49,352 nucleotides of DNA, from the NCBI GenBank assembly GCA_021324185.1, contig JAJPJN010000148.1:1-49352 (forward strand). Direction: 5' to 3'. Shown piece after piece: positions 15,606 to 47,910 of this stretch. The stretch is from Terriglobia bacterium (GTDB taxonomy: Bacteria > Acidobacteriota > Terriglobia > Bryobacterales > Bryobacteraceae). The first letter of the stretch is position 1. Each line of letters begins with the position of its first letter. The position numbers were made by a program, and so were the translations under genes. The notes beneath the pieces are model-generated. The model saw only the letters and a list, made by a program, of their open reading frames with translations, did not search any database and was not told the origin of the DNA.

Positions 15606-15614
15606 GCGTGCTTC

Positions 15615-17213
15615 CTATTGTGTGTTGGGCGCCGGGCCGTAGTCTTTCCAGAAATCTTTGGCCACTTCCGTCTGGGGCGCCTTCGCATTTTTCAATACGT
15701 TCGATTCAAGAGTCAAGGCGCTTAGCTCGCCCGGTGGCACAGAGAGAAACGTACCGGTGCCGGGGAAGGCTCTGCTGTCGCGAATGATGGCGCCGGGGCA
15801 ACGGTCCAGCCTAACCACGGGCATGCCCGGCAGGGGCTTGGTCGAGGTTACATCCGCCAGTTCCAGTTGTTGTGAATCGCGGATCAGAAAGGCTGGGCCG
15901 GACGCGGCATTGATGTGGATACTGTGCAGTTCCATGCCGCTGGTATTGTAAGCCTGCAGGCCGGTTTTTCCGGAGGCGATGATGCCGCTGATGCGAAGCC
16001 CTGAAATCGGCATTTCGGGCAGGCCTTCGATCTCAATGGGTACTTGGGCACCGGTGATGGTCATGTTGCTGATAGCGATGTCGCGAAATACGGGGGTGCG
16101 GTTTGAGACGGGCTCTTCGGCTGTTCGCTTTTCGCCTTCCATGATGTAGTAATTCGTGACGTTGATGCCGACGGAGACGTCCTCCATAGTCCAGTTATCG
16201 AATCGGACGTTTTCTACCGCGCCGCCGCGGCCACGACGGCTTTTGATGCGCACGCCGATTTGCGTGCCGTGGCAAGTGATGTTGCTGGCGACGAGATTGC
16301 GGACTCCGCCGGCAATTTCGCTGCCTAGAACGACGGCGCCGTGGGCGTGATAGACATTGCAATTCGTGATGGTGACGTTCTCCGTGGGACGATTCAAACG
16401 CAGCCCGTCGGCATCTTTGCCGGATTTGATAACGATGCCATCATCGCCGGTGTTGATGAACGAATTCGAGATGCGCACGTCTTTGCTGGAGTCGATGGCG
16501 ATGCCATCCGTGTGGACTCCCGGATAAGTGTCAATGGTGACCCCGTCGACCACGACTTTTTCCGAATAAAGGATGTGAACGGTCCACATGGGCGAACCGA
16601 TAAAGTGAACGCCTTGGACCAGCACGTTGGTGCTGTCCATGAAGCGCACGAATGACGGCCGAAGATGCGGCGCCGCTTTTTCGTACAGCTCTTTCGGGGC
16701 GGGCGAGTGGACTTCGAGGGCATCGAGCAGGCGCGTCCAATCGGGTCCGAAGACGGAACCCGGCCCGGTGGCGCTGTTCTTTTCAGGCCGCCCCAGAAGA
16801 TTGAGCCAGTCTTCGTTGCTGGTGGTCAAAATGCCTTGCCCCGCGATGGCGACATCGTGGAGGCGGCGGCCACCGATGAGGGGCACGGGGGTGAGGCACT
16901 CGATGCCTTGTTCGCGGCCTTCGGTGAAGGGCAGATGGGCTGCGGGAAAACGCAGAACGGCTCCGGCATCGACGTATAAAACGGTGTTGCTTGCCAGCTC
17001 GATGGGTCCGGTGATGTAGTCGCCAGCGGGGACAAAAATAGTGCCACCGCCAGCGGTTTTTGCGGCTTGAACGGCGGCGCGAAATGCATCGGTGGAGGGC
17101 CCGGAGCCGTCCCGCCTGGCGCCGTAATCAACCACGTTGAAAAAAGGTGAAGTGGCGGCAGAAGCAGGAAGGAAAGTGATTGTTAGTAACAGCGGCAGTA
17201 ACAGGCGAAACAT
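15615..17213 (-). CDS. Secreted glycoside hydrolase family 28, variant active-site motifs
   Basis: The protein has 532 residues with a clear signal peptide ending ASA. The N-terminal part FNVVDYGARRDG leads into a pectate-lyase-like beta-helix. The catalytic region keeps HTDG (234-237), TGDDG (256-260, Asp257 and Asp258) and VRIKS (321-325), but the first motif has His for Asn and the usual GHG is AHG (His291). These variants are common in exo-acting and rhamnogalacturonan-directed GH28 groups (family knowledge, not tested here). The catalytic aspartates and RIK are intact, so it is probably active. The SDR gene is 6 bp upstream and the other GH28 gene 9 bp downstream. Confidence 0.9.
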   Translation of the reverse strand: MFRLLLPLLLTITFLPASAATSPFFNVVDYGARRDGSGPSTDAFRAAVQAAKTAGGGTIFVPAGDYITGPIELASNTVLYVDAGAVLRFPAAHLPFTEGREQGIECLTPVPLIGGRRLHDVAIAGQGILTTSNEDWLNLLGRPEKNSATGPGSVFGPDWTRLLDALEVHSPAPKELYEKAAPHLRPSFVRFMDSTNVLVQGVHFIGSPMWTVHILYSEKVVVDGVTIDTYPGVHTDGIAIDSSKDVRISNSFINTGDDGIVIKSGKDADGLRLNRPTENVTITNCNVYHAHGAVVLGSEIAGGVRNLVASNITCHGTQIGVRIKSRRGRGGAVENVRFDNWTMEDVSVGINVTNYYIMEGEKRTAEEPVSNRTPVFRDIAISNMTITGAQVPIEIEGLPEMPISGLRISGIIASGKTGLQAYNTSGMELHSIHINAASGPAFLIRDSQQLELADVTSTKPLPGMPVVRLDRCPGAIIRDSRAFPGTGTFLSVPPGELSALTLESNVLKNAKAPQTEVAKDFWKDYGPAPNTQ

Positions 17214-17219
17214 ACTCAG

Positions 17220-17981
17220 TTACTCTCCTTGCGGCTGGAAGGGCCAAATACCGGTTGTAGTAAAGCCGCCATCGACGGCGATGACCTGGCCGGTGATGTA
17301 GTCGGCGCCGGGACTGCATAGGAAGGCCGCCAGAGGAGCGATATCTTCGGGCGCTCCCATGCGCGGGTTCGCCTGGGAAGCGGCGAGCCACTGCTTCATT
17401 TCGTCGGATTGCCACATCTGGCGGTTCAGGTCCGTAAGAATGAAGCCCGGAGCGATGCAGTTCACCTGGATGTTGTACTGACCCCATTCGGCTGCGAGGC
17501 AACGCGTGAGTCCGGCGAGAGCGCTCTTGGTCATTCCGTAAGCGGTCAGGTAGGGAAATCCGAGCAAGGAAGTGAGGCTTCCGATAAAAATAATTTTGCC
17601 GCCGGTTCCACGCTCAATCATTCTGCTGCCGATGCGCTGGGTGAGATGCACGAGACCAGTGAGATTCGAGCGGAAGAGATAGTCGAATTCTTCCGGCGTA
17701 TAGTTTTCAAACGGCTTACGAATGTTGGTGCCAGCGACATTGACCAGGGCATCGACGTCGGGCAGGCTGCTGATGGTATCGGGATCAGTGACGTCCATGC
17801 GCATGGCCCCGGCGCTAAAACCTTGTTTGCGCAGCGCGTCGGCTTCGGCTTCCAATGCGTTCAGGGTGCGAGCTGCCAGAATCGTGTGCGCGCCAGCCTG
17901 GGCAATAGCGCGGGCAATGGCAAGACCGATGCCGCGGCTGGCGCCCACGACCAGTACCGTTTTATTTGTCAGGTTGTGCAT
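17220..17981 (-). CDS. SDR oxidoreductase, gluconate 5-dehydrogenase/KduD-like
   Basis: This is a classical short-chain dehydrogenase of 253 residues. The Rossmann motif GASRGIG lies at 13-19 and NVAG at 81-84. The catalytic Ser135, Tyr148 and Lys152 (YGMTK) are present. The VNVAGTNIRKPFE and YITGQVIAVDGGF segments resemble gluconate 5-dehydrogenases and 2-keto-3-deoxygluconate dehydrogenases, which act in uronate breakdown. It is the first gene of an operon with two GH28 pectin hydrolases, so a role in galacturonate-derived sugar acid metabolism is a good inference. NAD or NADP preference is not decided; Ala-Arg after the second strand (AARTL) hints at NADP. Confidence 0.88.
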   Translation of the reverse strand: MHNLTNKTVLVVGASRGIGLAIARAIAQAGAHTILAARTLNALEAEADALRKQGFSAGAMRMDVTDPDTISSLPDVDALVNVAGTNIRKPFENYTPEEFDYLFRSNLTGLVHLTQRIGSRMIERGTGGKIIFIGSLTSLLGFPYLTAYGMTKSALAGLTRCLAAEWGQYNIQVNCIAPGFILTDLNRQMWQSDEMKQWLAASQANPRMGAPEDIAPLAAFLCSPGADYITGQVIAVDGGFTTTGIWPFQPQGE

Positions 17982-19848: not shown

Positions 19849-21178
19849 TTAGGGCAGCTTGCACCTGAGTTCGTAGATTTCTTCGCTGAGGGAGTTTTTG
19901 GAACCCAGTAACGTTCCATCCGGCGCTACTCCCCACCAGTTCTCGATGGGAATCGGGAAGTCCTTCATATCGACGAGCTTTTGTAACGCGCCCGTGACGA
20001 CATTAATGCGATAGAGCGCCCACTCCGATTCCAGATATGCTCTTCCACTAAAGTAGATGGATTGGGAATCGTACGACCAGGTGACGTTATCCACGTCATG
20101 CATGGAGATCACATCGCGCCAATACGAGGCATCGGAAGGTGAGATCCGAATCGTTCTGTTGTCTGTTGTGATCGCCAGAAGACTTTTTCCGTCGGGCGAC
20201 CAGCGCGGGCTCCAGAGCCCGTTTGTTTCTTTCAAGCTTTCGACTTGCCTTGTGCGCAGATCCATGCGATGCAGGCGCATTTCGGAACGCTGCCGGTGAT
20301 CCAAGCGTTCGCCGAATAAGAGGTAGGCATCATCCGGCGACCAGGTGGGGACACCCTGATCCGGCCCATCCGGCTGGAGTTGCTGCGGCGCTCCCCCCGC
20401 TGCGCTCACAACAAAAACTCGATATCTGCCGTTTGAATCCACGCGCACGGATCCCCAGAGCTTGTTTCCGCGTAAAGAGCAGATTCTGCCCGTCTGGTGA
20501 AATATCTAGTAATCGCAAACCGGATGGCATGGGGAGAGCGACTGGTTTTCCTCCCGTTACCAGGACTGTGACGGCACGCGCGAAAGCGCCCGCACCCTCG
20601 CTGAAGAAAAGGCGGCGTCCGTCTGTGAGGATCGGGCCGAATTTGGGTTGTCCGTCGTTGGTGATCTGGACAAACTGAGTCACGTTGGCGTTGCTCGGCC
20701 GGGCGTGGAAAGCTGTAATGGCGGCGAGGGATGCTGCCGCACCGGCCAGCCAGTAGCCGATGGACTTCTTCTTTGCAGGTTTGGGCGGGAGGGGCGGTTT
20801 CGGCGAAACTTGTGGAGGCTGAACGGGCAGTTTTGTGGGTTCGATTACTTCTACTTCGCGAACTTCGGCTACGAACTGCCAACCCGTTCCATAAGTCGAC
20901 TTTATATAGGAATCACCAGAGTCCGATGAGCCGAGTGCTTTCCGGATGAGTTTGATCTGGTAGTCAACTGCGTTTGGCGTGACATTCACTCCGGGCCAGA
21001 AGGTCTTAGTTAATTCCTCTCTGGAGATGGCGCGTTCGCGGTTGATAATCACGTGCTCCAGGATGGCGGTCGCCTTCGGCTGAAGCGGAATGTGAACCCC
21101 AGTACGAGTCAGTTTTCGGGTTTTGATGTTATAGGTGCAGTTCCCGAACTCTAGTAATTTGTTGAACAGAAAAGACAT
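19849..21178 (-). pseudogene. CadC-like winged-helix/TolB-propeller regulator, frameshifted
   Basis: Two overlapping frames encode one protein. The N-terminal frame (from ATG 21178) has an OmpR/CadC-type winged helix (about residues 10-105), a Pro-rich linker (112-138), one membrane helix (about 140-160) and the start of a TolB/PD40 propeller ending SPDGQNLLFT. The C-terminal frame (to 19849) continues the propeller with GNKLWGSVRVDSNGRYRVFV, TWSPDDAYLLF, RWSPDGKSLL and TWSYDSQSIYFSG. The switch lies at about 20468-20474 and corresponds to one extra base or two missing. Joined, the product would be about 442 residues. Such proteins are common in Acidobacteriota and are thought to sense outside the membrane while binding DNA inside. 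Either a true pseudogene or a sequence error is possible. Confidence 0.85.
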
Positions 21179-34630: not shown

Positions 34631-35665
34631 TTACCCTGATGCTAATCCTAAGCCCACTAGATTAGCCGCGGCGATGATCACGAGAATACCGATCCAGAGC
34701 GGGCGAATGGCGCGGCTGCTCACACCGGCCCACTCCCCAAGCGCCAGCCCTACGATACCGCCGAACAGGACGTAGCCACTCATGTGCAGCATCCAGTTCA
34801 CATAGCTAAGCCGCTGCGGGATGTTTGATACTCCCCAGGCATAAAAGAAGAACTGCAGATACCACATGATGCCGCCGAGCGCTGCCAGGGTTGCGTTCTT
34901 TGTAACTATGTTGGTTGGTTGCCGTAGGTCTCGCCGTAGCGAGATTTTGGAGAGGGCTGCAAGGCGGACGAAGCAGTAGGAAAAATTCACGAAAGCGCCG
35001 CCGCCCATGATGAACACATACGCCGGCAGCGCCGAATAGAGCGGATTAACGCCGGCGCGCAGCGCCGCACCCTGAATTGGCTGAGCCGCGTCAATAGCGA
35101 ACGACATTCCCGAGGAAAAGATGCCGCAGATGACTGCGAGTGCCAATCCGAGCATCACGTTGAACTCACTCGGCTCGTCACCTTTTAGCTGCATCTCCTT
35201 TTGATGTCCTGCCCACGAAACAATCGCGACGCCAATCAGGGCCACAGCCACACCGGCCATATTGAGTAGGCCGCTGCGCGTATGGAACAACATCGCCGAC
35301 TGGCCGTGCATCAGCGGCGGCGCCAGGGTGCCGACCACGAGCGTCACGCCAATCGCCACGCCAATGCCGAGCGACATGCCCAGGTAGCGCATGGTCAAGC
35401 CATAATTCACATTTCCTACACCCCACATGGCCCCGAATAGGGCGACCTTCAATAACACTGCCCCAGGAATAGAGCGGTAGAAAGCACCAAAATGCGGCAG
35501 AAGAATGTAGCTGACGCTAATCGGGAGCAATATCCAGGAGAAGACTCCGGCTACGGCCCATGTGGTCTCCCACGACCATTTCTTTACCTTTTCAATAGGT
35601 GCGTAGAATGACGCCGCTGACGCCGCACCCACCATGTGCCATCCGATCCCAGCAAGTAGTGACAT
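34631..35665 (-). CDS. rhaT: L-rhamnose/H+ symporter
   Basis: This 344-residue protein with about ten membrane helices has the RhaT signature at its N terminus (LAGIGWHMVGAASAASFYAP, KKWSWETTWAV) and GNVNYGLTMRYLGMSLGIGV in the middle. It imports L-rhamnose with protons across the inner membrane. It is the last gene of the minus-strand rhamnose operon, 49 bp after the mutarotase gene. Closely similar transporters in the family use related 6-deoxysugars, but the rhamnose genes around it make rhamnose by far the likeliest. Confidence 0.93.
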   Translation of the reverse strand: MSLLAGIGWHMVGAASAASFYAPIEKVKKWSWETTWAVAGVFSWILLPISVSYILLPHFGAFYRSIPGAVLLKVALFGAMWGVGNVNYGLTMRYLGMSLGIGVAIGVTLVVGTLAPPLMHGQSAMLFHTRSGLLNMAGVAVALIGVAIVSWAGHQKEMQLKGDEPSEFNVMLGLALAVICGIFSSGMSFAIDAAQPIQGAALRAGVNPLYSALPAYVFIMGGGAFVNFSYCFVRLAALSKISLRRDLRQPTNIVTKNATLAALGGIMWYLQFFFYAWGVSNIPQRLSYVNWMLHMSGYVLFGGIVGLALGEWAGVSSRAIRPLWIGILVIIAAANLVGLGLASG

Positions 35666-35714: not shown

Positions 35715-36083
35715 TCAAAGGGAGGCGCCGCTGGCTGGATTCAGAGTAACGTCCTGATGTTGCTCGTCCAGATGGAACACTTCTTCAAGAGGCGACATGG
35801 CGCGATCAGGCGTGGCGCCGTTTGTCTGAACAAAGAACGGCAGCATTTCGCGCTGCCACCGCTGATTCACGTCGCGCCGCGCCATTTCAGACCGGGCATG
35901 CTCAAAGTCTTCCGTTTCGAGATAACCGATTAGAAGACCATCGGGCCGCAGGAAGAGAGAGTAATTGTGCCAGCCGGTTTCGCGCAACGCCTGCTGCATC
36001 TCCGGCCAGACCGCGCTGTGCCGCCGCTTGTATTCTTCCATGCGCTCCGGGCGAACCTGGAGCGTGAAGCAGATCCTCTGCAT
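35715..36083 (-). CDS. rhaM: L-rhamnose mutarotase
   Basis: The protein has 122 residues and contains the mutarotase pattern: RICFTLQVRPERMEEYKRRH, AVWPEM, GWHNYSLFLRPDGLLIGYLE and RWQREMLPFF. The family interconverts alpha and beta anomers of L-rhamnose so that the isomerase is supplied with its preferred form. It is a little longer than the usual 104 residues because of a C-terminal tail (TPDRAMSPLEEVFHLDEQHQ). It lies 16 bp after the aldolase/dehydrogenase gene in the operon. Confidence 0.93.
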   Translation of the reverse strand: MQRICFTLQVRPERMEEYKRRHSAVWPEMQQALRETGWHNYSLFLRPDGLLIGYLETEDFEHARSEMARRDVNQRWQREMLPFFVQTNGATPDRAMSPLEEVFHLDEQHQDVTLNPASGASL

Positions 36084-36099: not shown

Positions 36100-38322
36100 C
36101 TATCGCAGGAATGCTTCCTGGAGCCCGCCGTCTACTGGGATGATGTGACCCGTCGTTTTGGCGGCTTCTTCGCTTGCCAGCCAGACAATCGCATTGGCGC
36201 AATCCTGCGGCAGAATAGGCCGCCGCGTGAGCGTCCGCTGTGCATAAAAATTCGCGAGTTTGTTCCGCAGTTCTTCCGTTGTTTCCGATTCCGAAAATTC
36301 GATCTTATACTTCTGCAGCGATTGAATCACGCGGTCGCGCGGAAACATCGTGGAACCGGCGACCACCGTAGCCGGCGCGATGCCATTCACCCGCACCAGC
36401 GGCGCCAGCCCCACCGCCAGCTCGCGAATCAAATGATTCAGCGCGCTCTTACTGATGTCATAGGCTTCGCTGCCGAACTTCGGAACTACTGCGTTCGCCG
36501 AGCTCGTCAGCACGATGCAGGCCGGAAGCTTCTGATCACGCAGAATCCATCCCGCCTCGCGGGCGAGCAGGTAGTTACCGGTGACGTTTACCAAAAACGT
36601 CTTGCTCCACTGGGTCTCGCTGAGCTGGCCGTCTTTTTGCGCCACCGGGAAAATAGCCGCCGTGTTGATAATCGCATCGATACCACCGAACTGGAGCACT
36701 GTAAAACGCGCCGCCTCGGCAATGCTTCCCGCGGAGCTGATATCGATTGCGGTATGCGCGACGACCTCCGGTGAAGCCACCGCCGCCGCTTCGCCCGCGA
36801 CCTCTTTCGCGCCTTCAGCGTTCTGATCCGCAACCACCACATGCGCGCCCTTGCGCGCCAGAATCAGCGCCACCTCACGGCCAATGCCGCTGCCGCCGCC
36901 CACAACCAGCAGAATTTTGCGGCTGAACTCCGCTTCCGCAGGCATGCGCTGCAGCTTGGCTTCTTCTAATGCCCAATACTCGATGCGGAACGCCTCCGAG
37001 CGCGGCAAAGCGACATAGTTGTGCCGGCTTTCAAATTGCTTGGATTGCTCTGCCGCCCGCGCTTGCGGCAAGGGATGCGTTGCCGGACCGGATTCGAGGG
37101 CGTTCGCTCCCGCCATCACATGGATGGCATTGACGAAGAACTCGGTCGTGATACGCGCCTCTTTTTTGTTCTTGGCGAAGCCGAAAAGGCCCACCCCCGG
37201 AATGAGCACCACCGAAGGATTCGAATCGCGCAGCTTTGGTGATTCCGGAGTAGCCCAGGCGTTGTAGTAGGCGGCGTACACGTTGCGATACGTCTCTGCC
37301 CGTTCGGCGATCAGCGCTTTAAGCGTGTCGATATTTTCCTCGCTCGGATGCCAGTCGACCAGCATCGGGCAGATGCGCGTGCGCAGGAAATGATCGGGGC
37401 AGCTTGTTCCCAGATCCCCGAGCTCGGCTGCCCACTCCGACCCGGCAAAGGTGAGTGCGTCTTCCTGATCGGTGTAATGCGCAATCACACGCCGGTTGGA
37501 AGACATGATGCCGCGCAGCGTGGGAAGAATCGCGGCAGCGATTTGGTTCCGGTTCGGCAGCGATTTGTATTTTTCGCCCCCGAACGGAGGAGCATTCAAC
37601 CTCTTTTGATGCTCCAGGATGAACTCGCCCATCTGGTCAATCGTCCGGATGCTGTTCAGGTAGCATTCGCGCTGCGTATTGCCCCAGGTAAACAGGCCGT
37701 GGCTGCCCAGCAGAACGCCATCGCAGCCGGGGTTCTCCTTCACCGCTTTCTCGAGTTGCAGCGCCAGTTCAAATCCCGGACGCTGCCACGGCAGCCAGAC
37801 GATCTTCCGGCCGTACTGCCGGTTGAACTCCTCCAGTTTCTGCTTGCCGTTCGCCGCCGCTGCAATCGCAATCGCCCAGTCCGGATGCAGATGATCGACG
37901 TGATCGAACGGCAGAAAAGCGTGCAGCGGCGTGTCGATTGAAGCGGCGACGCGGTTCTGCCCAAACGCCGACAGCGGATAGTAGCCCACCATCTCGTCTT
38001 CATGCGCCTCGCCTCGATAGAGTTGCTTGAGCTGCTCCAACCGGTCGAGGTATAGAAGCGCAAAACCGGATTCCTTGATCGAGCCGAGATCTCCGCCGCT
38101 CCCCTTCACCGCCAGCACGCGCACCGGCTTGCCCGTAAACGGATCCGGCAGCATGATCTTTGAGCTGGTGTTGCCGCCGCCAAAGTTTGTAATGCGCAGG
38201 TCCGCGCCAAGCAGGTTTGAGCGGTAGCGCAATAGCGCTAGCTGATTGTTTTGAAGTTGGGCGGCGATTTTATCGTCCCAGAGATCTTTCAGGTGATGAA
38301 CGGTTTCTGTAGCTGTGGGCAT
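36100..38322 (-). CDS. Bifunctional rhamnulose-1-phosphate aldolase/lactaldehyde-type dehydrogenase
   Basis: The open frame reaches 38340, but the ATG at 38322 has a GAGAG site at proper distance, giving 740 residues. Residues about 1-400 are a class II aldolase/adducin domain (ITNFGGGNTSSKIML, then LLGSHGLFTWG). Residues about 465-740 are a short-chain dehydrogenase (LLVVGGGSGIGREVALILAR, NTAAIFPVA, SEAYDISKSALNHLI, HIIPVDGG). The fused family splits rhamnulose-1-phosphate to dihydroxyacetone phosphate and L-lactaldehyde and oxidises or reduces the aldehyde, as known for RhaEW-type proteins. It lies between rhaI and rhaM. Confidence 0.93.
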   Translation of the reverse strand: MPTATETVHHLKDLWDDKIAAQLQNNQLALLRYRSNLLGADLRITNFGGGNTSSKIMLPDPFTGKPVRVLAVKGSGGDLGSIKESGFALLYLDRLEQLKQLYRGEAHEDEMVGYYPLSAFGQNRVAASIDTPLHAFLPFDHVDHLHPDWAIAIAAAANGKQKLEEFNRQYGRKIVWLPWQRPGFELALQLEKAVKENPGCDGVLLGSHGLFTWGNTQRECYLNSIRTIDQMGEFILEHQKRLNAPPFGGEKYKSLPNRNQIAAAILPTLRGIMSSNRRVIAHYTDQEDALTFAGSEWAAELGDLGTSCPDHFLRTRICPMLVDWHPSEENIDTLKALIAERAETYRNVYAAYYNAWATPESPKLRDSNPSVVLIPGVGLFGFAKNKKEARITTEFFVNAIHVMAGANALESGPATHPLPQARAAEQSKQFESRHNYVALPRSEAFRIEYWALEEAKLQRMPAEAEFSRKILLVVGGGSGIGREVALILARKGAHVVVADQNAEGAKEVAGEAAAVASPEVVAHTAIDISSAGSIAEAARFTVLQFGGIDAIINTAAIFPVAQKDGQLSETQWSKTFLVNVTGNYLLAREAGWILRDQKLPACIVLTSSANAVVPKFGSEAYDISKSALNHLIRELAVGLAPLVRVNGIAPATVVAGSTMFPRDRVIQSLQKYKIEFSESETTEELRNKLANFYAQRTLTRRPILPQDCANAIVWLASEEAAKTTGHIIPVDGGLQEAFLR

Positions 38323-38352
38323 GGTTGACTCTCTCAACACGCGCGAACTGTA

Positions 38353-39567
38353 CTACGCATAAGACGTTATGCCGGCCATATTTTTAGCACTGCGTTCCCG
38401 GGTAATTTTCTCCAGGTAACCGCTCGAACGGAAGGCCTGCATCGGATCTTCCGGCAGGCCCTTCGAGGCGCGCCACTCGCGAATGCTCGGACGCACATCG
38501 GTCGAAAACGCATCCTGGAGATAAGATTCGGCTCGCACAAGCTCGGCTTTCGCCTGGGCGCTGGCGAGTTGCTCGTGATCCACCAGGGCCGCCTTCGCGA
38601 AAAGCTCCTGCGCCACGGTAACGGTCTGGATCATGGCCTCGATTTTGCCTTTGAGGTTATGGCTCTGATCGATCATGTACGCAACATCGGCGCGGCTGCC
38701 GTTTTCCCACTCGAAGAAAAGAATCTCGTGGAAGATGCGAAATACCTGGTACGGGTCGATAGACCCCATCGTGAGATCGTCGTCGGCATAACGGCGGTCG
38801 TTGAAATGGAAGCCGCCGAGCATGTTTTCCGAAAGCAGCCAGGCAACAAGCTGCTCGATATTCTGCGCCTGATAATGATGCCCGGTATCTACCAGCACTT
38901 TCGCTTGCGGCCCGGCTGCCTTAGCCAGCAGCAGCGCCATCCCCCAATCGGCTATATCGGTGTGATAAAAAGCCGGCTCGAACGGTTTGTATTCGACCAG
39001 CAAGCGCTGATCCGGCGCGAGTCTCGCATGGCTTGCTTCGAGCAACTCCGTGAACCAGGCTTTTCGCCGCCGCATGTTCGCGGTTCCGGGATAATTCGAG
39101 CCGTCGGCAAACCACAATGAGATATCGCGGCAGTGCAGACGTTTTGCAATCTCGATGCTCTCTTCGGTATGACGGAAAGCCTGCTGCCGTACCGATTCGT
39201 CTGGATTGCCGAATGAGCCGTATTTGTAGATCTGATCCTGAAAGTAGTTCGGATTGATCGCCCCCGGCCGCACGCCGTAGCGCGTTCCGAGTTTATCGAC
39301 TTCACTGCAGCTTCCGATGCCCTCGGGAAGATCCCACAAAACGTGCAGCGCCACAGTCGGGCAGATGCCGGTGAGAGCGTGTACCTGCCCCGCATCGGAA
39401 AACTTCTCCTCCACCGTAGTTGCCGCCGCCGGCTGCAGGAACTTGCCGAAGCGCGTACCGGTATTGGCAAATCCCCAGGAGGGCAGCTCAATGCGGAAGG
39501 TCTCGAGCGCGGCGTGAATTTTGTCGGTCAGATTTGATGGCATGCGGGCACCAATCGATGCCGACAT
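38353..39567 (-). CDS. rhaI: L-rhamnose isomerase
   Basis: The 404-residue enzyme converts L-rhamnose to L-rhamnulose with divalent metals. Its sequence belongs to the Pseudomonas stutzeri-like RhaI group of TIM-barrel isomerases, not the E. coli RhaA group. Indicators are SWGFANTGTRFG, PTVALHVLWDLPEG, EYKPFEPAFYHTDIADWG, LVDTGHHYQAQNIEQLVAWL and GGFHFNDRRYADDDLTMGSI; the His and Asp of the last two stretches are the likely metal ligands. It is the first gene of the minus-strand operon. An ATG eight codons inside is an alternative start. No strong ribosome-binding site is visible at either. Confidence 0.93.
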   Translation of the reverse strand: MSASIGARMPSNLTDKIHAALETFRIELPSWGFANTGTRFGKFLQPAAATTVEEKFSDAGQVHALTGICPTVALHVLWDLPEGIGSCSEVDKLGTRYGVRPGAINPNYFQDQIYKYGSFGNPDESVRQQAFRHTEESIEIAKRLHCRDISLWFADGSNYPGTANMRRRKAWFTELLEASHARLAPDQRLLVEYKPFEPAFYHTDIADWGMALLLAKAAGPQAKVLVDTGHHYQAQNIEQLVAWLLSENMLGGFHFNDRRYADDDLTMGSIDPYQVFRIFHEILFFEWENGSRADVAYMIDQSHNLKGKIEAMIQTVTVAQELFAKAALVDHEQLASAQAKAELVRAESYLQDAFSTDVRPSIREWRASKGLPEDPMQAFRSSGYLEKITRERSAKNMAGITSYA

Positions 39568-39603
39568 GGTAATTCACGTTACTGCTTAATAGTAGTCTTT
39601 TCT

Positions 39604-39661
39604 AGCGCCGGGCGCTGATTTTGCACTGTAAAATGCCGCCTGCTTCCCGCGCGGCAGGCGG
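39604..39661. promoter_or_regulatory. Two further inverted repeats in the rhamnose control region
   Basis: AGCGCC-G-GGCGCT (39604-39616) is a perfect 6-1-6 palindrome. CCGCCTGC (39636-39643) and GCAGGCGG (39654-39661) are perfect complements around 10 bases, followed by TTTC. The second could also be an RNA hairpin in the leader of either transcript. Confidence 0.45.
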
Positions 39662-39721
39662 TTTCATCTGCTACTAGAAACTCGGCGCCACTCCGCTCCT
39701 GATATATTTTGCATTGCAGAA
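39618..39721. promoter_or_regulatory. Pair of matching palindromic operator candidates between rhaI and its regulator
   Basis: TTTTGCACTGTAAAA (39619-39633) and TTTTGCATTGCAGAA (39707-39721) are both near-perfect 15-bp palindromes, each with one mismatched pair, and are 88 bp apart. The first is 51 bp before the rhaI start and the second 17 bp before the regulator start. They share the form TTTTGCA-N-TG-N-A-N-AA. They are the best candidates for binding by the regulator encoded at 39739. Confidence 0.6.
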
Positions 39722-39738
39722 GATAGTTCGAGGTAACC

Positions 39739-40881
39739 ATGAGCGTTCCCGTCCGGAGCCGTGATCCGTACTTAGTAAAGTCCGTCATCCACTCGTCGCA
39801 ATTGCTGCTGGCATTTCGCAGCGCCGGTGAGACCCTGCGGCTGAAGGAAATTGCCGCGCGCAGCGGCTTGCCCAAGACCATGGTCTTCCGGCTGCTGTAT
39901 ACGCTCGAGCGTTGCGGAATGATCGAGAAGGTCGGCGAGAATCTGTACCAAAGCTGTCTGCGGCCATTCAAACAGCGCATGTATCGCCTCGGCTATGCGG
40001 CGCAGGGAACCGACTATGAGTTCTCGAAGGACGTCTCAACCAGCCTCGTGCGCGCCGCCTCGGCGGAAGGCATAGAGCTCATCGTGCTCGACAACCGCTA
40101 TAACCCGAAAATCGCGCAGCGCAATGCCGATCTGCTCGTACGGGAAAAGGTGGACCTGGTAATTGAGTTTCAGACGGATGAAAACGTCGCGCCGGTTGTC
40201 GCCTCCAAATACCGCGAGGCAAACATACCGCTGATCGCCATCGATATCCCGCACCCCGGCGCTACCTATTACGGCGCCAACAACTACGAAGCCGGGTTGA
40301 TCGGCGGCCGCTATATGGGACGTTGGGCCAAGCACCACTGGCAATCCGATGTCGACGAAATTATTTTGCTGGAGCTGCCGCGCGCGGGAAGCTTGCCGCG
40401 CATGCGCCTCACCGGGATGCTGGCGGGCATGAGAGAAGTGGTTCCCAAGCTGGATAACTGCCCGGTGATTTACCTGAACACCGACGGCCAGTTGGGTGAA
40501 AGTTTCGAAGCGATGCGCAAGCACCTGCGCGCCAGCCGCGCCAGCCGCATTATGATCGGCGCAATTAATGATGCGACCGCGCTCGGCGCATTACGCGCAT
40601 TTCAGGAAGCAGGCCGCGCCGCCAATTGCGCGATTATGGGCCAGAACGCATCGCCCGAAGGAAGAGCGGAGTTGCGCGAGCCGGGCACCAGAATGATCGG
40701 CTCCGTCGCCTACTTCCCGGAACGCTACGGCGATGATCTGGTGCGCGTCGCACTGGATATTTTGAACCGCCGTCCGGTACCGCCGGCGGTGTTTGTCAAA
40801 CATCAACTCATCACGCCGGAGACGGTGAATCACTTCTATCCCAATGACCGGCTGATGCAGGTCGCGACCGCAAGCGCCTGA
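39739..40881 (+). CDS. Transcriptional regulator: IclR-type winged helix fused to a sugar-binding (PBP1) domain
   Basis: The 380-residue protein starts at an ATG with GAGG 6 bases upstream. Residues about 10-72 look like an IclR N-terminal domain: SVIHSSQLLLAF, LRLKEIAARSGLPKTMVFRL, LYTLERCGMIEKVGENLYQ. Residues about 90-365 look like a type 1 periplasmic-binding/LacI-like ligand domain: VREKVDLVIEFQTDENVAPV, IPLIAIDIPHPGATYYGANN, YEAGLIGGRYMGRW and AINDATALGALRAFQEAG. It has no signal peptide, so it acts in the cytoplasm. It faces the rhamnose operon across 171 bp with two matching palindromes, so rhamnose or a derivative is the likely ligand. LacI regulators normally carry a different DNA-binding domain and IclR regulators a GAF-like ligand domain; this pairing is unusual. 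Confidence 0.88.
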   Translation: MSVPVRSRDPYLVKSVIHSSQLLLAFRSAGETLRLKEIAARSGLPKTMVFRLLYTLERCGMIEKVGENLYQSCLRPFKQRMYRLGYAAQGTDYEFSKDVSTSLVRAASAEGIELIVLDNRYNPKIAQRNADLLVREKVDLVIEFQTDENVAPVVASKYREANIPLIAIDIPHPGATYYGANNYEAGLIGGRYMGRWAKHHWQSDVDEIILLELPRAGSLPRMRLTGMLAGMREVVPKLDNCPVIYLNTDGQLGESFEAMRKHLRASRASRIMIGAINDATALGALRAFQEAGRAANCAIMGQNASPEGRAELREPGTRMIGSVAYFPERYGDDLVRVALDILNRRPVPPAVFVKHQLITPETVNHFYPNDRLMQVATASA

Positions 40882-41893: not shown

Positions 41894-42580
41894 CTACATA
41901 GCATGCGCCAGCCGCCGCAGCGAATCGATTTCGCGCGTAGTGGCTTCCTGCCGCGTTCGAATCAATACCAACGCGGTTGCGATCAGCAAAATCGCTAAAA
42001 AGTTCAAATAGAAAATGCGTTCCATTGCCGGGTCCATGTGGCCGCCGCCGGTGCGTATGCTGAGCACAGGGCCCGGATGCTGCGTGCGGAACCACTCAAT
42101 CGATTTCCAGACGATGACCTCATCGACACAGCCAAAAATGCAAAGCGCAGCGGAGAGCCGCCCCCGTTGCGTGGGCTCATCAATCGCTCTGCGAAGCATC
42201 AAATAAGCCAGGAAAATGAGTATGCCCACCAGCGCCGAAGTGAGGCGCGCATCCCAGGTCCACCAGATGCCCCAGATGACCCGCGCCCAGATGCTGCCGC
42301 TCACGATATTCACCAGCGAAAAGACCAGCGACACTTCGACTACCGAAGCTGCCAGCGAATCCCACTTGAGGTCTTTCGAGCTGAGATAGAGCACGCTGAG
42401 TACTAGCGCGACAAAATAGCCCACCATACCAACAATGGCCGCCGGTACATGGAAAAAGAGAATGCGATAGATCGGCCCTTGCATCGCCTCATCCGGCAGC
42501 ACGAGGAAGATCTGGTACAAGTCATACACCAGCAGCAGGCCGCCGGCAGCAGCCAGGGCGATTGTTAATTTTTCCCGCAT
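41894..42580 (-). CDS. ccmC: Heme exporter/handling protein CcmC
   Basis: The open frame extends to 42688, but the ATG at 42580 matches the family start (MREKLTIALAAAGG) and avoids overlap with ccmB. The 228-residue protein has about six membrane helices and the heme-binding tryptophan-rich motif WGIWWTWDARLTSALV in a periplasmic loop. The flanking histidines are in LFFHVPAA and RTQHPGPVLS. CcmC loads heme onto CcmE. It lies between ccmB and ccmD. Confidence 0.94.
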   Translation of the reverse strand: MREKLTIALAAAGGLLLVYDLYQIFLVLPDEAMQGPIYRILFFHVPAAIVGMVGYFVALVLSVLYLSSKDLKWDSLAASVVEVSLVFSLVNIVSGSIWARVIWGIWWTWDARLTSALVGILIFLAYLMLRRAIDEPTQRGRLSAALCIFGCVDEVIVWKSIEWFRTQHPGPVLSIRTGGGHMDPAMERIFYLNFLAILLIATALVLIRTRQEATTREIDSLRRLAHAM

Positions 42581-42600
42581 AGGTTTATTATCCCGATGTT

Positions 42601-43281
42601 TCAATTCACCAGAATCGTCTCCGCCAGTGCTATGGCAAGCGACGTAAATACAATGTCGAAAACGATGAGCACCTTGGCCCAGAGCCATTCGTAACTCGTG
42701 AACGGCTGATTGCCGAGCAGCGCATTCGTCATCTCAATTGCTCCTACCAGCAACGGCACCAGAAGCGGGTAAATAATCACCGGAAGCATCAGCTCGCGAA
42801 GCCGGAGATTCACCGTGAGAGCACCAAAAACTGAGCCGGTGATAGCGATGCCCCAGCTTGCCAGCGCGCAGGTCAACGCCAGTTCGCCCGGATGCAGCCA
42901 CCAGCGGATGTTGTAGAACACGCCAAAAACAAACAGCGAAACCACTTCCACCAGCAGAAGCAGAAAGAACACGCCGATGGCTTTACCAATAAGCAGGCTC
43001 GATGGCGCCAGCGGAGACGCCAGCAAGGTGTCCAGGCACTCGTTCGGAAGCTCGCGCGCAAATCCACGGTTAAACACCAGCGCACCTGCAAACGCAAACG
43101 TCAGCCACAGCAGGCCGGCCGCGAGCTCGTGAATTGCCTCCGAAAATGGATCGAAAGCGAAACTGAACAGGATGAGAATGGCAATGGAGAACGCGCCCGC
43201 GGCATTGACTGATTCTTTGGTACGAAGCTCGAGCGCCAGATCCTTGCGCGCAACGGAAAACGCCTGCTTGAACGCCTTCAC
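42601..43281 (-). CDS. ccmB: Heme ABC transporter permease CcmB
   Basis: The 226-residue protein has six membrane helices and the CcmB family pattern (FSVARKDLALELRTKE, NRGFARELPNECLDTLLASP, PSSLLIGKAIGVFFLLLLVE, then the final helices). It overlaps the ccmA stop by 4 bases, so it is translationally coupled. CcmA and CcmB form the ABC module that releases heme-bound CcmE. Confidence 0.94.
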   Translation of the reverse strand: MKAFKQAFSVARKDLALELRTKESVNAAGAFSIAILILFSFAFDPFSEAIHELAAGLLWLTFAFAGALVFNRGFARELPNECLDTLLASPLAPSSLLIGKAIGVFFLLLLVEVVSLFVFGVFYNIRWWLHPGELALTCALASWGIAITGSVFGALTVNLRLRELMLPVIIYPLLVPLLVGAIEMTNALLGNQPFTSYEWLWAKVLIVFDIVFTSLAIALAETILVN

Positions 43282-43988
43282 GCGGCGCCCGGCTCCGCGT
43301 GCAAACGGTAGAGCAGCGCCGGGTCATCCAACATGGCCTGCGTGCGTTCGCCGCTGAAACGCAGCCTCCCGTTTTCAATAAGGGCGACATGCGAGGCGAT
43401 GGCCATGGCTTCGCGAAGCTGATGAGTCGACAAAATAATGGTTGCCTGGCGGGCACGCGCTTCGACAAGCAACTGGCTCAACATGTGGATGGCGCGATCA
43501 TCGAGCGACGTGAACGGCTCATCCAGCAGCAAGACGTTCGGCGCATGCAGAAACGTGCGGGCCAGAGCCAGCCGCTGCCGCATGCCGCGTGAAAACTGCC
43601 GGACGGGCATATCCGCAACCCGCTCCAGGCCGACACGCTCGAGCCAGCCGCTTACCACCCCGCGGGCATTCGGCACATCCGCAATGCGGGCAAAAAACTG
43701 CAAATTCTCGCGAGCCGAAAGGTCTTCGTAGACTCCGATCCCGTGCCCTAGAAAGCCCGTGCGGCGGCGCGTTTCGCCCGTGCGAGGAGCCGTTCCGAAC
43801 AAACGCACAGTGCCGCGCTGAAAATGCGACAGGCCGGCGAGAATGCGCAACAGAGTCGTTTTCCCGGCGCCGTTGCGGCCCAGAAGCGCGCAACAGGAAC
43901 CCTCCGCGACGCTCAGCGTGCAATCGCGCAAAGCCGGGTAATCGCCATAGTATTTCCAGATGTGAGCTATCTCGATCGCCGCTGTCAT
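43278..43988 (-). CDS. ccmA: Heme ABC transporter ATPase CcmA
   Basis: The 236-residue ABC ATPase has the Walker A motif GRNGAGKTT (residues 37-45), signature FSRGMRQRLALAR and Walker B VLLLDEPFTSLD. The switch histidine is in STHQLREA. It energises release of heme-loaded CcmE together with CcmB and CcmC. Its position after the carboxypeptidase-regulatory gene and before ccmB supports the call over other ABC proteins. Confidence 0.93.
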   Translation of the reverse strand: MTAAIEIAHIWKYYGDYPALRDCTLSVAEGSCCALLGRNGAGKTTLLRILAGLSHFQRGTVRLFGTAPRTGETRRRTGFLGHGIGVYEDLSARENLQFFARIADVPNARGVVSGWLERVGLERVADMPVRQFSRGMRQRLALARTFLHAPNVLLLDEPFTSLDDRAIHMLSQLLVEARARQATIILSTHQLREAMAIASHVALIENGRLRFSGERTQAMLDDPALLYRLHAEPGAA

Positions 43989-44002
43989 CCGGTTGATCTG
44001 GG

Positions 44003-45001
44003 TTATTTACCGTAAGGAGAGCGCACCGGTGAGTTGCGGAATAAAAAAATCAGACCGGCGCCCAGAATCGCAAATAGAATCGCAAGCAGCCAGCGAAGAT
44101 GGGCGTAGATCCGCGGGTTGCCTTCGGTGACTTGCGGGCGGTCGGCATCATCATCGCTCCCGGTGTCCTGCTGGTGCAACGACCCGATTCCGGCGATGTC
44201 GAATGAGAAGAAACCCGCAGCGGTGACGTTATAGATAGTGGCTTGCGTCTTGGGTTCCGTGCCGATCTGCTGAATATCCTTGCCGCTGAGCGTGACGCCC
44301 GGCGGAGCAATTAAACGCAACGGTCCGGATGGCATTCCTTTTACGCCCACAAGCCGCCCGTGGAAAGTGAAAGGCGAACCCACCGGCAGAACGTAATTCA
44401 CATCGAACTCTGTTTCGCCCGGTTTGATCGGGAAATCGACTTTGAAGACGTCAGCTTCCTTGGTCTTCTCGGCGGGGCGCGGAAGCGGCATGCCTTGCGG
44501 CCCCTGCGCATTCACGCGCACCTGCCCGTTGGCGGCAGGCGGTAGATAGAAACGGAGTTCGCCCGTTTCCGGATTGTTGAAAGTCGTGTTCGTAGTGTTT
44601 TCGACGAGCACCGTTTCGGAAACGCCGATCTGGCTCGTGTTCGGCTCAATCATCAGCATCTGCTGCGCAACATGCGCCACTGCCGGTGATTTTGTCGCTT
44701 CGAAAATGTCCAACTCGACATTCGAAGTAGCGATATTCGGCGTGAGTAGCTTGTTGTAGTTGACGCCCTTGTAATTGGCTTGCAGCAACTGCGGGCCACC
44801 ACCCGGCTCGTCTTTTTCGAAAACGAAGTGGCCGGCCGCATCGCTGATCGCGGTTCCGAGCGTCCGCATTCCGCCCTGTCCCGGCTTGATCAAATTGATT
44901 GTGACGCCCGGCTGCGGCTTACCCGTCGTGCGGTTTACTACCGTTCCATCGATGGCAGCCTGCAGGGAAGCAGCCATCAATAAGCACACGAGCAGCCTCA
45001 T
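44003..45001 (-). CDS. Membrane-anchored carboxypeptidase-regulatory-domain protein in the ccm operon
   Basis: The ATG at 45001 (an open frame reaches 45019) overlaps the previous stop by 4 bases and begins a signal peptide (LLVCLLMAASLQA). The next part, IDGTVVNRTTGKPQPGVTIN, is a carboxypeptidase regulatory-like beta-sandwich (about residues 17-100). A long beta-rich region follows, and a C-terminal membrane helix (WLLAILFAILGAGLIFLFR, about 298-317) anchors it. The bulk of the protein should face the periplasm. Such a protein is not one of the standard ccm genes. Its place in the middle of the operon, coupled to its neighbour, suggests a role in cytochrome c maturation, but nothing in the sequence shows what. 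Confidence 0.85.
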   Translation of the reverse strand: MRLLVCLLMAASLQAAIDGTVVNRTTGKPQPGVTINLIKPGQGGMRTLGTAISDAAGHFVFEKDEPGGGPQLLQANYKGVNYNKLLTPNIATSNVELDIFEATKSPAVAHVAQQMLMIEPNTSQIGVSETVLVENTTNTTFNNPETGELRFYLPPAANGQVRVNAQGPQGMPLPRPAEKTKEADVFKVDFPIKPGETEFDVNYVLPVGSPFTFHGRLVGVKGMPSGPLRLIAPPGVTLSGKDIQQIGTEPKTQATIYNVTAAGFFSFDIAGIGSLHQQDTGSDDDADRPQVTEGNPRIYAHLRWLLAILFAILGAGLIFLFRNSPVRSPYGK

Positions 45002-45408
45002 GCGATCGCCTTCCCGCATTCACCGCAAAACTTCAAGTGTTGTGCAAAGGAGGCGCCGCAATGCGGGCAGAGCGTCCCGGTTTGCGTCTGTGGTTTCGCT
45101 TTCGGCTTTGCCGGGGAGACGGAACTTGGTCCCAATCCAAGCCGCTTGCTCAACTCCTCGGTTTCGGCCAGCACGCCCGCAAGTTCTTTCTGCAAGGCGA
45201 GCTTGGTCTGCTGGTAATCTTCATCGGATAGCTTGCCCAAACGATACTCAAATTGCAGGTCTCGCAGATTTTCATAGATCGCCTGTTTGCGATCCTGCAG
45301 ATGCTGAATAGGCGAAACGGGCAGCGGCTCGGGAATATCGCGATCGCGAACAAAGAGTGTGTAGTACAGGGCTGCAAGCGCAACAACAATGGCCAGGACA
45401 ACGATCAT
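44998..45408 (-). CDS. Membrane zinc-ribbon protein, CcmI-like N-terminal part
   Basis: The 136-residue protein has an N-terminal helix (MIVVLAIVVALAALYYTLFV). A helical region, NLRDLQFEYRLGKLSDEDYQ then QTKLALQKELAGVL, resembles the helical hairpin of CcmI (the segment that binds CcmF/H). The C-terminal zinc ribbon has CPHCGAS (Cys114, Cys117) and CGECG (Cys128, Cys131). It overlaps ccmH by 4 bp and the next gene by 4 bp. A role as a shortened CcmI partner is inferred; the zinc ribbon replaces the usual periplasmic TPR part. Confidence 0.8.
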   Translation of the reverse strand: MIVVLAIVVALAALYYTLFVRDRDIPEPLPVSPIQHLQDRKQAIYENLRDLQFEYRLGKLSDEDYQQTKLALQKELAGVLAETEELSKRLGLGPSSVSPAKPKAKPQTQTGTLCPHCGASFAQHLKFCGECGKAIA

Positions 45409-45929
45409 GTCTGCGCGTCTGAACCCTTTCGTTCCGTTTCCGGAGATTCGCCCAATTCGCGATCAATCTGGTTGCGGAAACGCTCGATTGTGGCGCGGTC
45501 GATTTCGGTCAGCGGTTCGGGAGCTTTGCGATTGCGCCGCACATAGGCGGAATAGACGAAAAGCCCGATCAGGAGTGCGATGCCGGGCATGACCCACGTG
45601 ATGAGTCCGCCCAGTGTGCCGGTTGGCGGCGCGGCGAGCGCTACGGTGCCTTCCTCGCGAACGATAGTATTGATCACGTCCTGATCGCTCATCCCGCTCA
45701 TCTTCATCTGGTAAATCCGGCGGCGAAGCGGATCGGCAGAGCTGCAGCGCAGCATGGGACAGTTGCCGACCGTGTTGCGGCAACCGCCACAGCGGCACGC
45801 GAGGTGATCGCCCACCCGCATGACGCCAGGTGTGAGATAGGACGTCGGATCCTGCGCCACCAGCGCGGCGACCACTGCGCAAAAGGCCAGGACTAATTTA
45901 AAGCTCGATCGCCGCAGGCGCGCTCGCAA
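45405..45929 (-). CDS. ccmH: Cytochrome c maturation thiol protein CcmH
   Basis: The 174-residue protein has a signal peptide or anchor (KLVLAFCAVVAALVAQ), then HLACRCGGC (Cys45, Cys47, Cys50), a redox CxxC at Cys47-Cys50. Further cysteines follow in VGNCPMLRC, then the typical helices (LRRRIYQMKMSGMSDQDVIN) and a C-terminal membrane helix (ITWVMPGIALLIGLFVYSAY). CcmH keeps apocytochrome heme-motif cysteines reduced and works with CcmF. The canonical Leu-Arg-Cys start is Cys-Arg-Cys here, with extra cysteines, so a metal or extra disulfide is possible. It overlaps ccmF by 32 bp at its start. Confidence 0.9.
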   Translation of the reverse strand: MRARLRRSSFKLVLAFCAVVAALVAQDPTSYLTPGVMRVGDHLACRCGGCRNTVGNCPMLRCSSADPLRRRIYQMKMSGMSDQDVINTIVREEGTVALAAPPTGTLGGLITWVMPGIALLIGLFVYSAYVRRNRKAPEPLTEIDRATIERFRNQIDRELGESPETERKGSDAQT

Positions 45930-47910
45930 TGCCTACTACCTCCGTTCGCGCGTATTGCAGCCGCACCTTGCCGGGAATCAGGCAGATGATGGTTCCGAAC
46001 AGGAGAACCCAGTACCCCAGCCAGATGCAACTGACCAGGGGAAAGATATAAATCTGGAAGATCGCTTTGGTATTGTCCGGAAGAACACCCGAGTAGTTTA
46101 CATACAGATCTTCGTTGAGGCGGCGGCGAATGCCGATGATCGAACTCTGCTCTTGGTTGTTTTTGTAGACCCGCACTTCCGGATCGAGCTGATCGATCAC
46201 CTTGCCGCCGCGCGATACTTCGATCACTGCATGGCTGAACTGATAATCGGGAGTTTCGCCGTCGTTTACGCTCAGCAGCTTCAGATCGTAGCGGCCGAAA
46301 CGCAGGCTCTCATTCAGCCCTAAATTGCGCGTCTCGTGCTGGTTGAAGGCGCTGCCGGTAAAGCCGATGAACATCAATACAATCCCGACGTGCACAAGGT
46401 ATCCGCCGTACCGGCGCGTGTTGCGCCAGGTCAGCTCAAAGGCCGCCTTCGGCAGCGGCAGATGTTCCTTTATTTGGATGGCGCGCGAGCCTTTCCAGAA
46501 CTCGCCCGCGATGGTGGATAAAACGAACGCGCACAGGCCGAACGAGATGAGCGGCGCTATTTCGTGAATGCCGGCCAGTGCCAGCGAAACGCTCACTGCC
46601 AAGCCAATTAGCGCGGGAACGAGAAACGCCCGTTTCAAACTGTTCAACGAGCTTTTGCGCCACGCAATCAGCGGTCCAACGCCGGTCAGGAAAATCAGGA
46701 ACAACGCGATGGGCACATTGACGCGGTTGTAATAAGGCGCATCGATGGTCTCTTTCTCGCCCGTCAGCGCTTCCATCACCACCGGGAACAACGTGCCCCA
46801 CAAGATCGCGAAGCAGCTTGCCAGCAGAATCAGATTGTTGAACAGGAAACTCGATTCGCGTGAAACCACGCTCTCCAGCTTCACTTCGCTCTTGAGGTAC
46901 GGAAGGTTCTTGACGATCGCAAAGGCAGTCAGAACGGTGGCGGAAACGATGAATGTGGTGAAGTACGGCTTCACAGGCGATTGCGCGAAAGCGTGAACCG
47001 AGGCGACCAGACCGGTGCGCGTCAGAGTCGTACCAAGAATGCTCAGCAGAAACGTGGCCGATACCAGGACCATGTTCCAGACCTTCATCATTCCCTTTTT
47101 TTCCTGCATCATTACGGAATGGAGGAAAGCCGTGGCAGTGATCCAAGGCATCAGTGAGGCGTTCTCTACCGGATCCCAGCCCCAATAACCGCCCCAGCCA
47201 AGCACGGTATAGGCCCAGCCCATCCCGAGCAGAATTCCGGTGCTTTGAAACAGCCAGGTAACAATCGCCCAGCGGCGGGTCGTGTGAATCCAGCCTTCAC
47301 CAGGTTGATGAGTGATCAGCGAGGCCATCGCAAAAGCGAACGGCACCGTGAATCCCACGTATCCGAGATACAGAAATGGCGGGTGGATGGCCATGGTCCA
47401 CCACTGCAACAGCGGGCTGAGGCCGTTGCCATCGCCAACGTCGATGACACCGCGTCCGGCCATCAGCACCTGGAACGGGCTTGCGACGAACGCCACCATG
47501 CCCACAAAGAAGGCGAGGGTGGTCATCATGATCGCAACCACGATGGGCATCATCTCGCGGAATTTGCGCCGGTTCGTATAGACCGCGATGGCCGAATAGG
47601 TTGAAAGCAGCCAGCTCCAGAAAAGCAGCGAGCCTTGTTGTCCGCCCCACCAGGCTGTGAATTTGTACACCGCAGGCATCGCCTTGTCGGTATGTGCCGC
47701 GACATAGGCGATGCGGTAATCACCCTGCATCAACAGCGCGATCAGCACAGCAGAGGCGATTGTCAGGAGCGCCCAGATAGCGTACACGGCGCGTTCGGCG
47801 CTAACCGTCAGATATGGCCGGCGCGCATACTTGCCGCTGATGGCCGCTATCACCGAAAACACTGCCAGGCAGAAAGCCAGCAAGACCGAAAGCGCGCCAA
47901 TATTTTCCAT
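45898..47910 (-). CDS. ccmF: Cytochrome c heme lyase subunit CcmF
   Basis: The 670-residue membrane protein has the family WWD heme motif GGYWGWDPVENASLMPW (about residues 230-250) and an otherwise full CcmF length with many helices and a large C-terminal periplasmic domain (IGIRRRLNEDLYVNYSGVLP). Histidines in HPPFLYLGYVGFTVPFAFAM fit the heme-coordinating positions. CcmF attaches heme to apocytochrome c on the periplasmic side. It starts 12 bp after ccmE. Confidence 0.95.
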   Translation of the reverse strand: MENIGALSVLLAFCLAVFSVIAAISGKYARRPYLTVSAERAVYAIWALLTIASAVLIALLMQGDYRIAYVAAHTDKAMPAVYKFTAWWGGQQGSLLFWSWLLSTYSAIAVYTNRRKFREMMPIVVAIMMTTLAFFVGMVAFVASPFQVLMAGRGVIDVGDGNGLSPLLQWWTMAIHPPFLYLGYVGFTVPFAFAMASLITHQPGEGWIHTTRRWAIVTWLFQSTGILLGMGWAYTVLGWGGYWGWDPVENASLMPWITATAFLHSVMMQEKKGMMKVWNMVLVSATFLLSILGTTLTRTGLVASVHAFAQSPVKPYFTTFIVSATVLTAFAIVKNLPYLKSEVKLESVVSRESSFLFNNLILLASCFAILWGTLFPVVMEALTGEKETIDAPYYNRVNVPIALFLIFLTGVGPLIAWRKSSLNSLKRAFLVPALIGLAVSVSLALAGIHEIAPLISFGLCAFVLSTIAGEFWKGSRAIQIKEHLPLPKAAFELTWRNTRRYGGYLVHVGIVLMFIGFTGSAFNQHETRNLGLNESLRFGRYDLKLLSVNDGETPDYQFSHAVIEVSRGGKVIDQLDPEVRVYKNNQEQSSIIGIRRRLNEDLYVNYSGVLPDNTKAIFQIYIFPLVSCIWLGYWVLLFGTIICLIPGKVRLQYARTEVVGIASAPAAIEL

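Follow-up and report, generated by a model that had tools for sequence, protein, structure and literature searches.

A regulator joining an IclR-type winged helix to a periplasmic-type sugar-binding domain and its predicted operators at rhamnose and rhamnogalacturonan genes of Acidobacteriota

Rhamnose regulators have been reported from the AraC, DeoR and LacI families (PMC3870299, which like the papers below is cited from excerpts). The LacI-family regulators RhaR of the Actinomycetales, RhiR and RhmR control rhamnose or rhamnogalacturonan regulons and possess a sugar domain homologous to that of the protein described here, the hybrid (PMC3870299). They differ from it by their LacI helix-turn-helix (HTH), and even operators are usual in the LacI family (PMC4052901), whereas the hybrid has no LacI HTH and an odd 17-bp predicted operator. 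AraR of B. subtilis, like the hybrid, unites a winged helix and a sugar-binding domain from different families and controls sugar-use genes (PMC4218819, PMC4052901), but its HTH is of the GntR type and is joined to a GalR/LacI-type domain, while the HTH of the hybrid is of the IclR type and its predicted targets are rhamnose genes. AraR is thus a precedent for joining a winged helix with a sugar domain of the LacI type (PMC4218819), and the hybrid varies a known principle. Members of the IclR family (COG1414; KdgR, IclR, PcaR) share with the hybrid an N-terminal HTH_IclR domain. The operator consensus predicted from orthologs of the hybrid fits group 1 of that family (PMC8222616), although the two sites beside the hybrid's own gene depart from it. 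These proteins are about 250 aa long with an IclR_C domain, whereas the hybrid has 380 aa and no IclR_C; their tandem sites are spaced 18-22 nt from centre to centre (PMC8222616), as against 76-126 bp for most pairs of predicted hybrid sites. CUT2 ABC sugar-binding proteins, RbsB and one from Acidisoma among them, contain the same entire sugar-binding fold as the hybrid. The Acidisoma and Rhizobium CUT2 proteins, however, are ABC-transporter parts with an apparent export signal at the start, whereas in the hybrid the domain comes after a DNA-binding domain and is thus presumably cytoplasmic. No report of a regulator combining an IclR HTH with a sugar-binding protein was found in a search of the full-text literature, which left most subscription papers outside. 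The hybrid would add a further type to the AraC, DeoR and LacI rhamnose regulators.

The window (the whole stretch of DNA analysed, 49,352 nucleotides from a Terriglobia bacterium) encodes the hybrid at 39739-40881 on the + strand as a single open frame of 380 aa, which starts with ATG and is preceded by GAGG at 39730-39733. The preliminary description, made by eye, had proposed an IclR winged helix at the N-terminus and a periplasmic-binding-protein type 1 domain in the remainder, with neither a LacI HTH nor the IclR ligand domain. Indeed, Pfam placed HTH_IclR at residues 20-65 (39796-39933, + strand; 50.9 bits, cut-off 22, E 1.3e-13) and Peripla_BP_4 at residues 89-343 (40003-40767, + strand; 83.4 bits, cut-off 35.1, E 2.5e-23), and Peripla_BP_1 was likewise above its cut-off. 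The LacI HTH (PF00356), IclR_C (PF01614) and the GntR HTH did not appear among the nine Pfam families reported up to E 1, a range in which the HMMER filters discard most matches above about 0.1. The Pfam search thus returned a significant IclR match and no standard LacI HTH, and the possibility that a LacI-type HTH had been overlooked by eye was ruled out by the same listing. All NCBIfam matches were far below their cut-offs; those of the N-terminal part were IclR-type regulators and those of the C-terminal part were sugar-binding proteins and LacI-type repressors. The structure prediction suggested in the preliminary description was made with AlphaFold: the model, computed from 19 aligned orthologs (alignment A1; mean pLDDT 82.2, pTM 0.65), had helices and strands in a winged-helix pattern at residues 16-72 and a sugar-binding fold at 83-358. 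Ribose-binding proteins were the top solved structures matched by Foldseek (2ioy first, E 7e-18, TM 0.86 over the target), and the ancestral LacI sugar domain 9nt4 ranked 47th in the list.

The closest matches of the sugar domain among plasmid records were sugar-binding proteins of ABC transporters from Rhizobium and Acidisoma, at about 35% identity. The cluster that encodes the Acidisoma protein carries annotations for L-rhamnonate dehydratase and an IclR regulator, the Rhizobium protein adjoins an annotated arabinose isomerase, and the stretch IDIPxPGAxx[FY]GxNN is common to both and to the hybrid. In an alignment to RbsB, residues R223, N277 and D/E169 of the hybrid fell on the ribose contacts R141, N190 and D89 of RbsB; the positions of D215 and Q235 are occupied in the hybrid by N303 and Y325. 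Because the ribose-contact positions are partly kept and partly replaced, the pocket looks like a sugar pocket changed relative to ribose.

Of 396 genomes from the window's phylum, the Acidobacteriota, 44 contained relatives of the hybrid (E up to 1e-30), at 77 places with 31-77% identity to the window's protein, the window itself aside; one stop fell within the match at six of these places. Both HTH_IclR and Peripla_BP_4 were detected (E up to 0.001) in all 50 members scanned, which had been picked across clades out of 69 ORFs (alignment A2). A joining of two genes by misassembly or faulty gene calling is next to impossible given these 50 members and the near-full-length relatives in the 44 genomes and in named contigs, and this explanation was rejected. 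Judged from sequence, the hybrid build is common to a family in the phylum. A tree divided the family into several clades, named A (the window's) to G. A scan of genome contigs from 84,980 species of all phyla, which detects close relatives only, yielded 20 loci, all in records titled Acidobacteria, Acidobacteriota, Acidobacteriaceae, Terriglobia or Bryobacterales; in 18 the match ran from the N-terminal part onward, and the others covered only residues 296-379 (L020) and 113-374 (L021). Beyond the phylum the hybrid protein was further compared with plasmids, phages and viral contigs. Among plasmids there were 63 matching records, and 59 of the 60 read matched from residue 74 or later and therefore without the winged helix. 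The one exception, a Pseudarthrobacter protein with the annotation of an ABC substrate-binding protein, aligned to residues 26-366 with 21% identity. A single match, 33 residues long, came from viral contigs, and phages gave none.

The preliminary description had also placed the gene divergently to rhaI and tied it to rhamnose genes, and this was borne out. On the - strand lie rhaI for L-rhamnose isomerase, the divergent target (38353-39567; NCBIfam RhaI_grampos, E 5.7e-150, 499.5 bits, below the 531 cut-off), rhaDW for a rhamnulose-1-phosphate aldolase/short-chain dehydrogenase (36100-38340; NCBIfam NF006189, 941 bits, cut-off 634), rhaM for L-rhamnose mutarotase (35715-36083; Pfam rhaM, E 3.4e-33) and rhaT for the L-rhamnose/proton symporter (34631-35665; Pfam RhaT, E 3.1e-131). 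The gaps between the rha genes are 12-50 bp, in an operon-like arrangement, and a rhaB-like kinase is encoded elsewhere in the genome (contig C95, 15782-17164; 452.6 bits, below cut-off). The accompanying statement that another regulator is lacking held for the reading frames beside the operon; the genome has other regulators, including four matches to the LacI HTH. HTH_IclR matched three times in the genome, with 54.6 bits for the hybrid and marginal scores of 22.4 and 22.1 for the other two; IclR_C had no match across the genome at E up to 0.001.

The pairing of this family with rhamnose genes recurred in other genomes, as the preliminary description had proposed looking for. Among the 396 genomes the family occurred in 44, rhaI in 59 and both in 39, so that 39 of the 44 genomes containing the family also had rhaI (a rhaI match was missing in five), as against 20 of the 352 lacking it. 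The family member and rhaI were at most 6 kb apart in 36 of the 39 genomes having both. Within the window's class, all 36 genomes containing the family had rhaI, as against 2 of the 11 lacking it, counts that are uncorrected for relatedness. At 20 named ortholog loci, rhaI, rhaD or rhaM lay within the fetched stretch in 13, and all three were missing from it in seven. Among 80 fetched stretches, which represent 79 distinct places (L008 equals L073) and many of which stop at a contig end, 32 contained rhaI and 41 contained any of rhaI, D, M, B and T. Members of clade G, which share about 35% identity with the window's protein, frequently lie in the order rhaI - regulator - rhaDW - rhaB, while eight members of clade F (L116 and L119-L125) are divergent to mannonate dehydratase (uxuA) and beside receptor-like genes. 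Because some clades stand beside mannonate dehydratase or other genes, the ligand is not rhamnose throughout the family; going by gene neighbours, this is a family that serves sugars besides rhamnose, in clade F by way of mannonate dehydratase. A clade D member (L088, 6412-9317) precedes matches to aceric acid hydrolase (109 bits) and to OiaX, 3-oxo-isoapionate-4-phosphate decarboxylase (462 bits), both under their cut-offs, neighbours hinting at rhamnogalacturonan II sugars.

A predicted operator, the 17-bp palindrome ATTTTGCACTGTAAAAT, was spotted by eye near rhaI at 39618-39634, with a partner near the regulator gene at 39706-39722 that suggests autoregulation; the two carry one and two mismatches, respectively, to RTTTYGCANTGCRAAAY. 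These copies are 88 bp apart between rhaI and the regulator gene. The rhaI-proximal site starts 51 bp before the start codon of rhaI, and the regulator-proximal site occupies positions 17-33 bp ahead of the regulator ATG. An unsupervised palindrome search of upstream DNA from 21 close orthologs returned RTTTCGCAnTGCGAAAY with a score of 305, against 137-144 for three sets of controls that were plainly shuffled and uncorrected for relatedness. The best site of each ortholog region had at most two mismatches to RTTTYGCANTGCRAAAY in 17 of 21 (a fit reached by at most 0.3% of 300 shuffles each) and three mismatches in 3 of 21 (about 2% of shuffles); in the remaining region, that of the most divergent ortholog (L018), the best site had five mismatches, which is chance level. 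Between the two predicted operators of the window, at 39635-39662, there is a ten-pair hairpin, and folding of 39600-39738 gave -48.6 kcal/mol (z -2.25), a value at least equalled by 7 of 200 shuffles.

The reported IclR group 1 consensus is GKTYCRYW3-4RYGRAMC, with subgroups GTTYCRYW3RYGRAAC and WTTYCRYW3RYGRAAW, in the excerpt of PMC8222616, whereas that of PMC4052901 gives even palindromes for 1251 of 1303 LacI regulators, a central CG for 1173 and odd palindromes for about 4%. The ortholog consensus fits IclR group 1, unlike the usual LacI type, and the predicted operator, an odd 17-bp palindrome, lacks the even LacI-type form. The two sites of the window depart from the IclR consensus five bases in from either end, where T/A replaces C/G, and are thus weaker examples of an IclR operator; the rhaI-proximal site also has a central C where the IclR consensus expects W. 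IclR-like motifs were returned for clade F (GTTTCRCWnWGYGAAAC, a 17-bp palindrome; 135 versus 78), for clade D (ATTCCRnnnnnYGGAAT; 99 versus 61) and, weakly, for clade B (67 versus 47-51). The first motif run on DNA upstream of the clade G regulators gave no clear motif, and the DNA upstream of rhaI in that clade gave an 18-bp even palindrome, WWnTYTCWATWGARAnWW (234 versus 126), which is not of the IclR type and, because the clade G genomes are close relatives, may reflect shared descent.

Searches of whole genomes extended the predicted sites beyond the rha operon. In the window's own genome 31 sites with at most two mismatches were found, against 6 for the reversed pattern, and each of the five one-mismatch sites was close to a rha gene, a PL4 lyase gene or an outer-membrane receptor-like gene ('receptor-like' denoting a match to Pfam OMP_b-brl_4). 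One is the predicted operator at the rha locus; three others precede a PL4 rhamnogalacturonan lyase gene (contig C39), a receptor-like gene adjoining PL22 and GH106 (C112) and a second receptor-like gene (C26), and the last, on C180, is flanked by a GH2/GH28 pair on one side and a third receptor-like gene on the other. Both C39 sites fall within a mechanically called frame on the opposite strand. At C112 (L038, 6144-9615) the receptor-like gene with its paired operators adjoins a divergent gene pair for a PL22 oligogalacturonate lyase and a GH106 rhamnosidase. Three of the 26 two-mismatch sites are partners of one-mismatch sites; of the other 23, 21 are inside a called frame (two of these in receptor-like frames), and none precedes a gene of the reference set by 500 bp or less. 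The rhaB-like gene at C95:15782 has no nearby site with up to three mismatches. In the KBS 96 genome all three one-mismatch sites are upstream of such genes, two by 338 and 374 bp ahead of receptor-like frames and one by 46 bp ahead of a rhaDW gene that is unlinked to, and far from, the regulator gene. Seven clade A genomes had 0-5 one-mismatch sites each, 17 in total: the five of genome G399 are by rhaI/regulator and receptor-like genes, the single site of G348 is beside no gene of the reference set, and G398 has the ortholog and no one-mismatch site. The predicted regulon extends past the rha operon to rhamnogalacturonan lyase and outer-membrane receptor-like genes.

Counts in seven genomes without the family were 0, 4, 0, 0, 0, 0 and 1 (four in G289, one in G257), and the one-mismatch site is therefore not exclusive to the family. 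These two genomes favour an alternative in which the palindrome belongs to another regulator and the hybrid acts elsewhere, which is nonetheless very improbable. The ortholog consensus of the site matches that of IclR group 1, two more clades have IclR-type palindromes of their own, and the window's genome has no IclR_C and, besides the hybrid, only the two marginal IclR-HTH matches of about 22 bits. The site also accompanies clade A: upstream of rhaI the best site had 4-7 mismatches in 12 of 12 genomes without clade A and one mismatch in 2 of 2 with it, in a comparison that looked at 16 of 30 rhaI loci and dropped two rows (L189 and L193) cut short by a contig end. We infer that the hybrid binds at the predicted sites and regard it as likely to be a regulator of rhamnose and rhamnogalacturonan genes acting through them. 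This reading offers a hypothesis for the control of rhamnogalacturonan use in a large, poorly studied soil phylum and supplies an operator candidate.

In the proposed mechanism the hybrid would be a one-component transcription factor whose IclR-type winged helix reads 17-bp palindromes RTTTYGCAnTGCRAAAY and whose sugar domain, in effect the sugar-binding protein of an ABC transporter in cytoplasmic form, would sense L-rhamnose or a close rhamnogalacturonan breakdown product. That the sensed sugar is L-rhamnose itself we hold to be about evenly balanced. A ligand that is instead an oligo- or acid product of rhamnogalacturonan, such as galacturonosyl-rhamnose or an unsaturated rhamnogalacturonide, is possible but doubtful. 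It would suit predicted targets that include the PL4 lyase gene, the receptor-like gene by PL22 and GH106 and the GH2/GH28 locus, as well as the mannonate dehydratase adjoining another clade; yet rhaI, rhaDW and rhaB are the most frequent recognised neighbours in clades A and G, and it is monosaccharide binders that the sugar domain resembles.

With respect to the sign of control, we lean towards a repressor rather than an activator. The hybrid would occupy the two sites that separate rhaI from its own gene and repress both genes, would likewise repress receptor-like and lyase genes from nearby sites, many of which are paired, and would release the DNA when bound sugar closes the two lobes. 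A scan of 39500-39800 found no sigma-70 promoter or terminator; the operators are thus unplaced relative to promoters, and repression is a guess from position. Some IclR-type regulators are activators. The same sites and regulon could serve a hybrid that is an activator or dual regulator and whose sugar-bound form recruits polymerase, which we consider rather unlikely. The start of the rhaI-proximal site 51 bp ahead of rhaI favours activation, and paired sites ahead of one recognised gene, as at C112, suit either sign; the regulator-proximal site, however, is so close to its own ATG (17-33 bp) that its position is more usual for repression.

Of 31 examined regions, 16 contained a second site that had three or fewer mismatches, compared with 0.6 expected, although 10 of the 31 had been picked for holding a site. 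Spacings were 76, 86, 88 and 88 bp in the window's own genome and 113-126 bp in 9 of 12 pairs elsewhere, the rest being 21, 147 and 210 bp; 13 of the 16 pairs were thus spaced by 76-126 bp and one by 21 bp. Both sites at C112, 88 bp apart, precede one recognised gene, and a pair is therefore not merely one site for each of two divergent promoters. In the loops formed by the Lac and Gal repressors, operators about 90-114 bp apart are known. A dimer contact is present both in IclR proteins and in LacI-type domains, and the hybrid may for this reason bridge two operator-bound dimers. If so, an IclR operator would be combined with a loop like that of the Gal or Lac repressor, over paired sites 76-126 bp apart. 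Such looping is part of a broader reading, possible but doubtful, in which the proteins form a separate Acidobacteriota family of transcription factors that arose when an IclR winged helix captured a CUT2 protein and that has spread into several subfamilies for plant-sugar genes. The hybrid represents a natural experiment in the exchange of DNA-reading and sugar-sensing modules that may be useful in sensor building.

Other genes of the window were named by eye. At 14232-17981 a pair of GH28-like pectinase genes accompanies a gene for a short-chain dehydrogenase, with no predicted operator of up to two mismatches nearby. At 20330-21178 a winged-helix frame is followed by an apparent truncated beta-propeller and is possibly cut short, and genes resembling those of cytochrome c maturation occupy 41894-47910 on the - strand.
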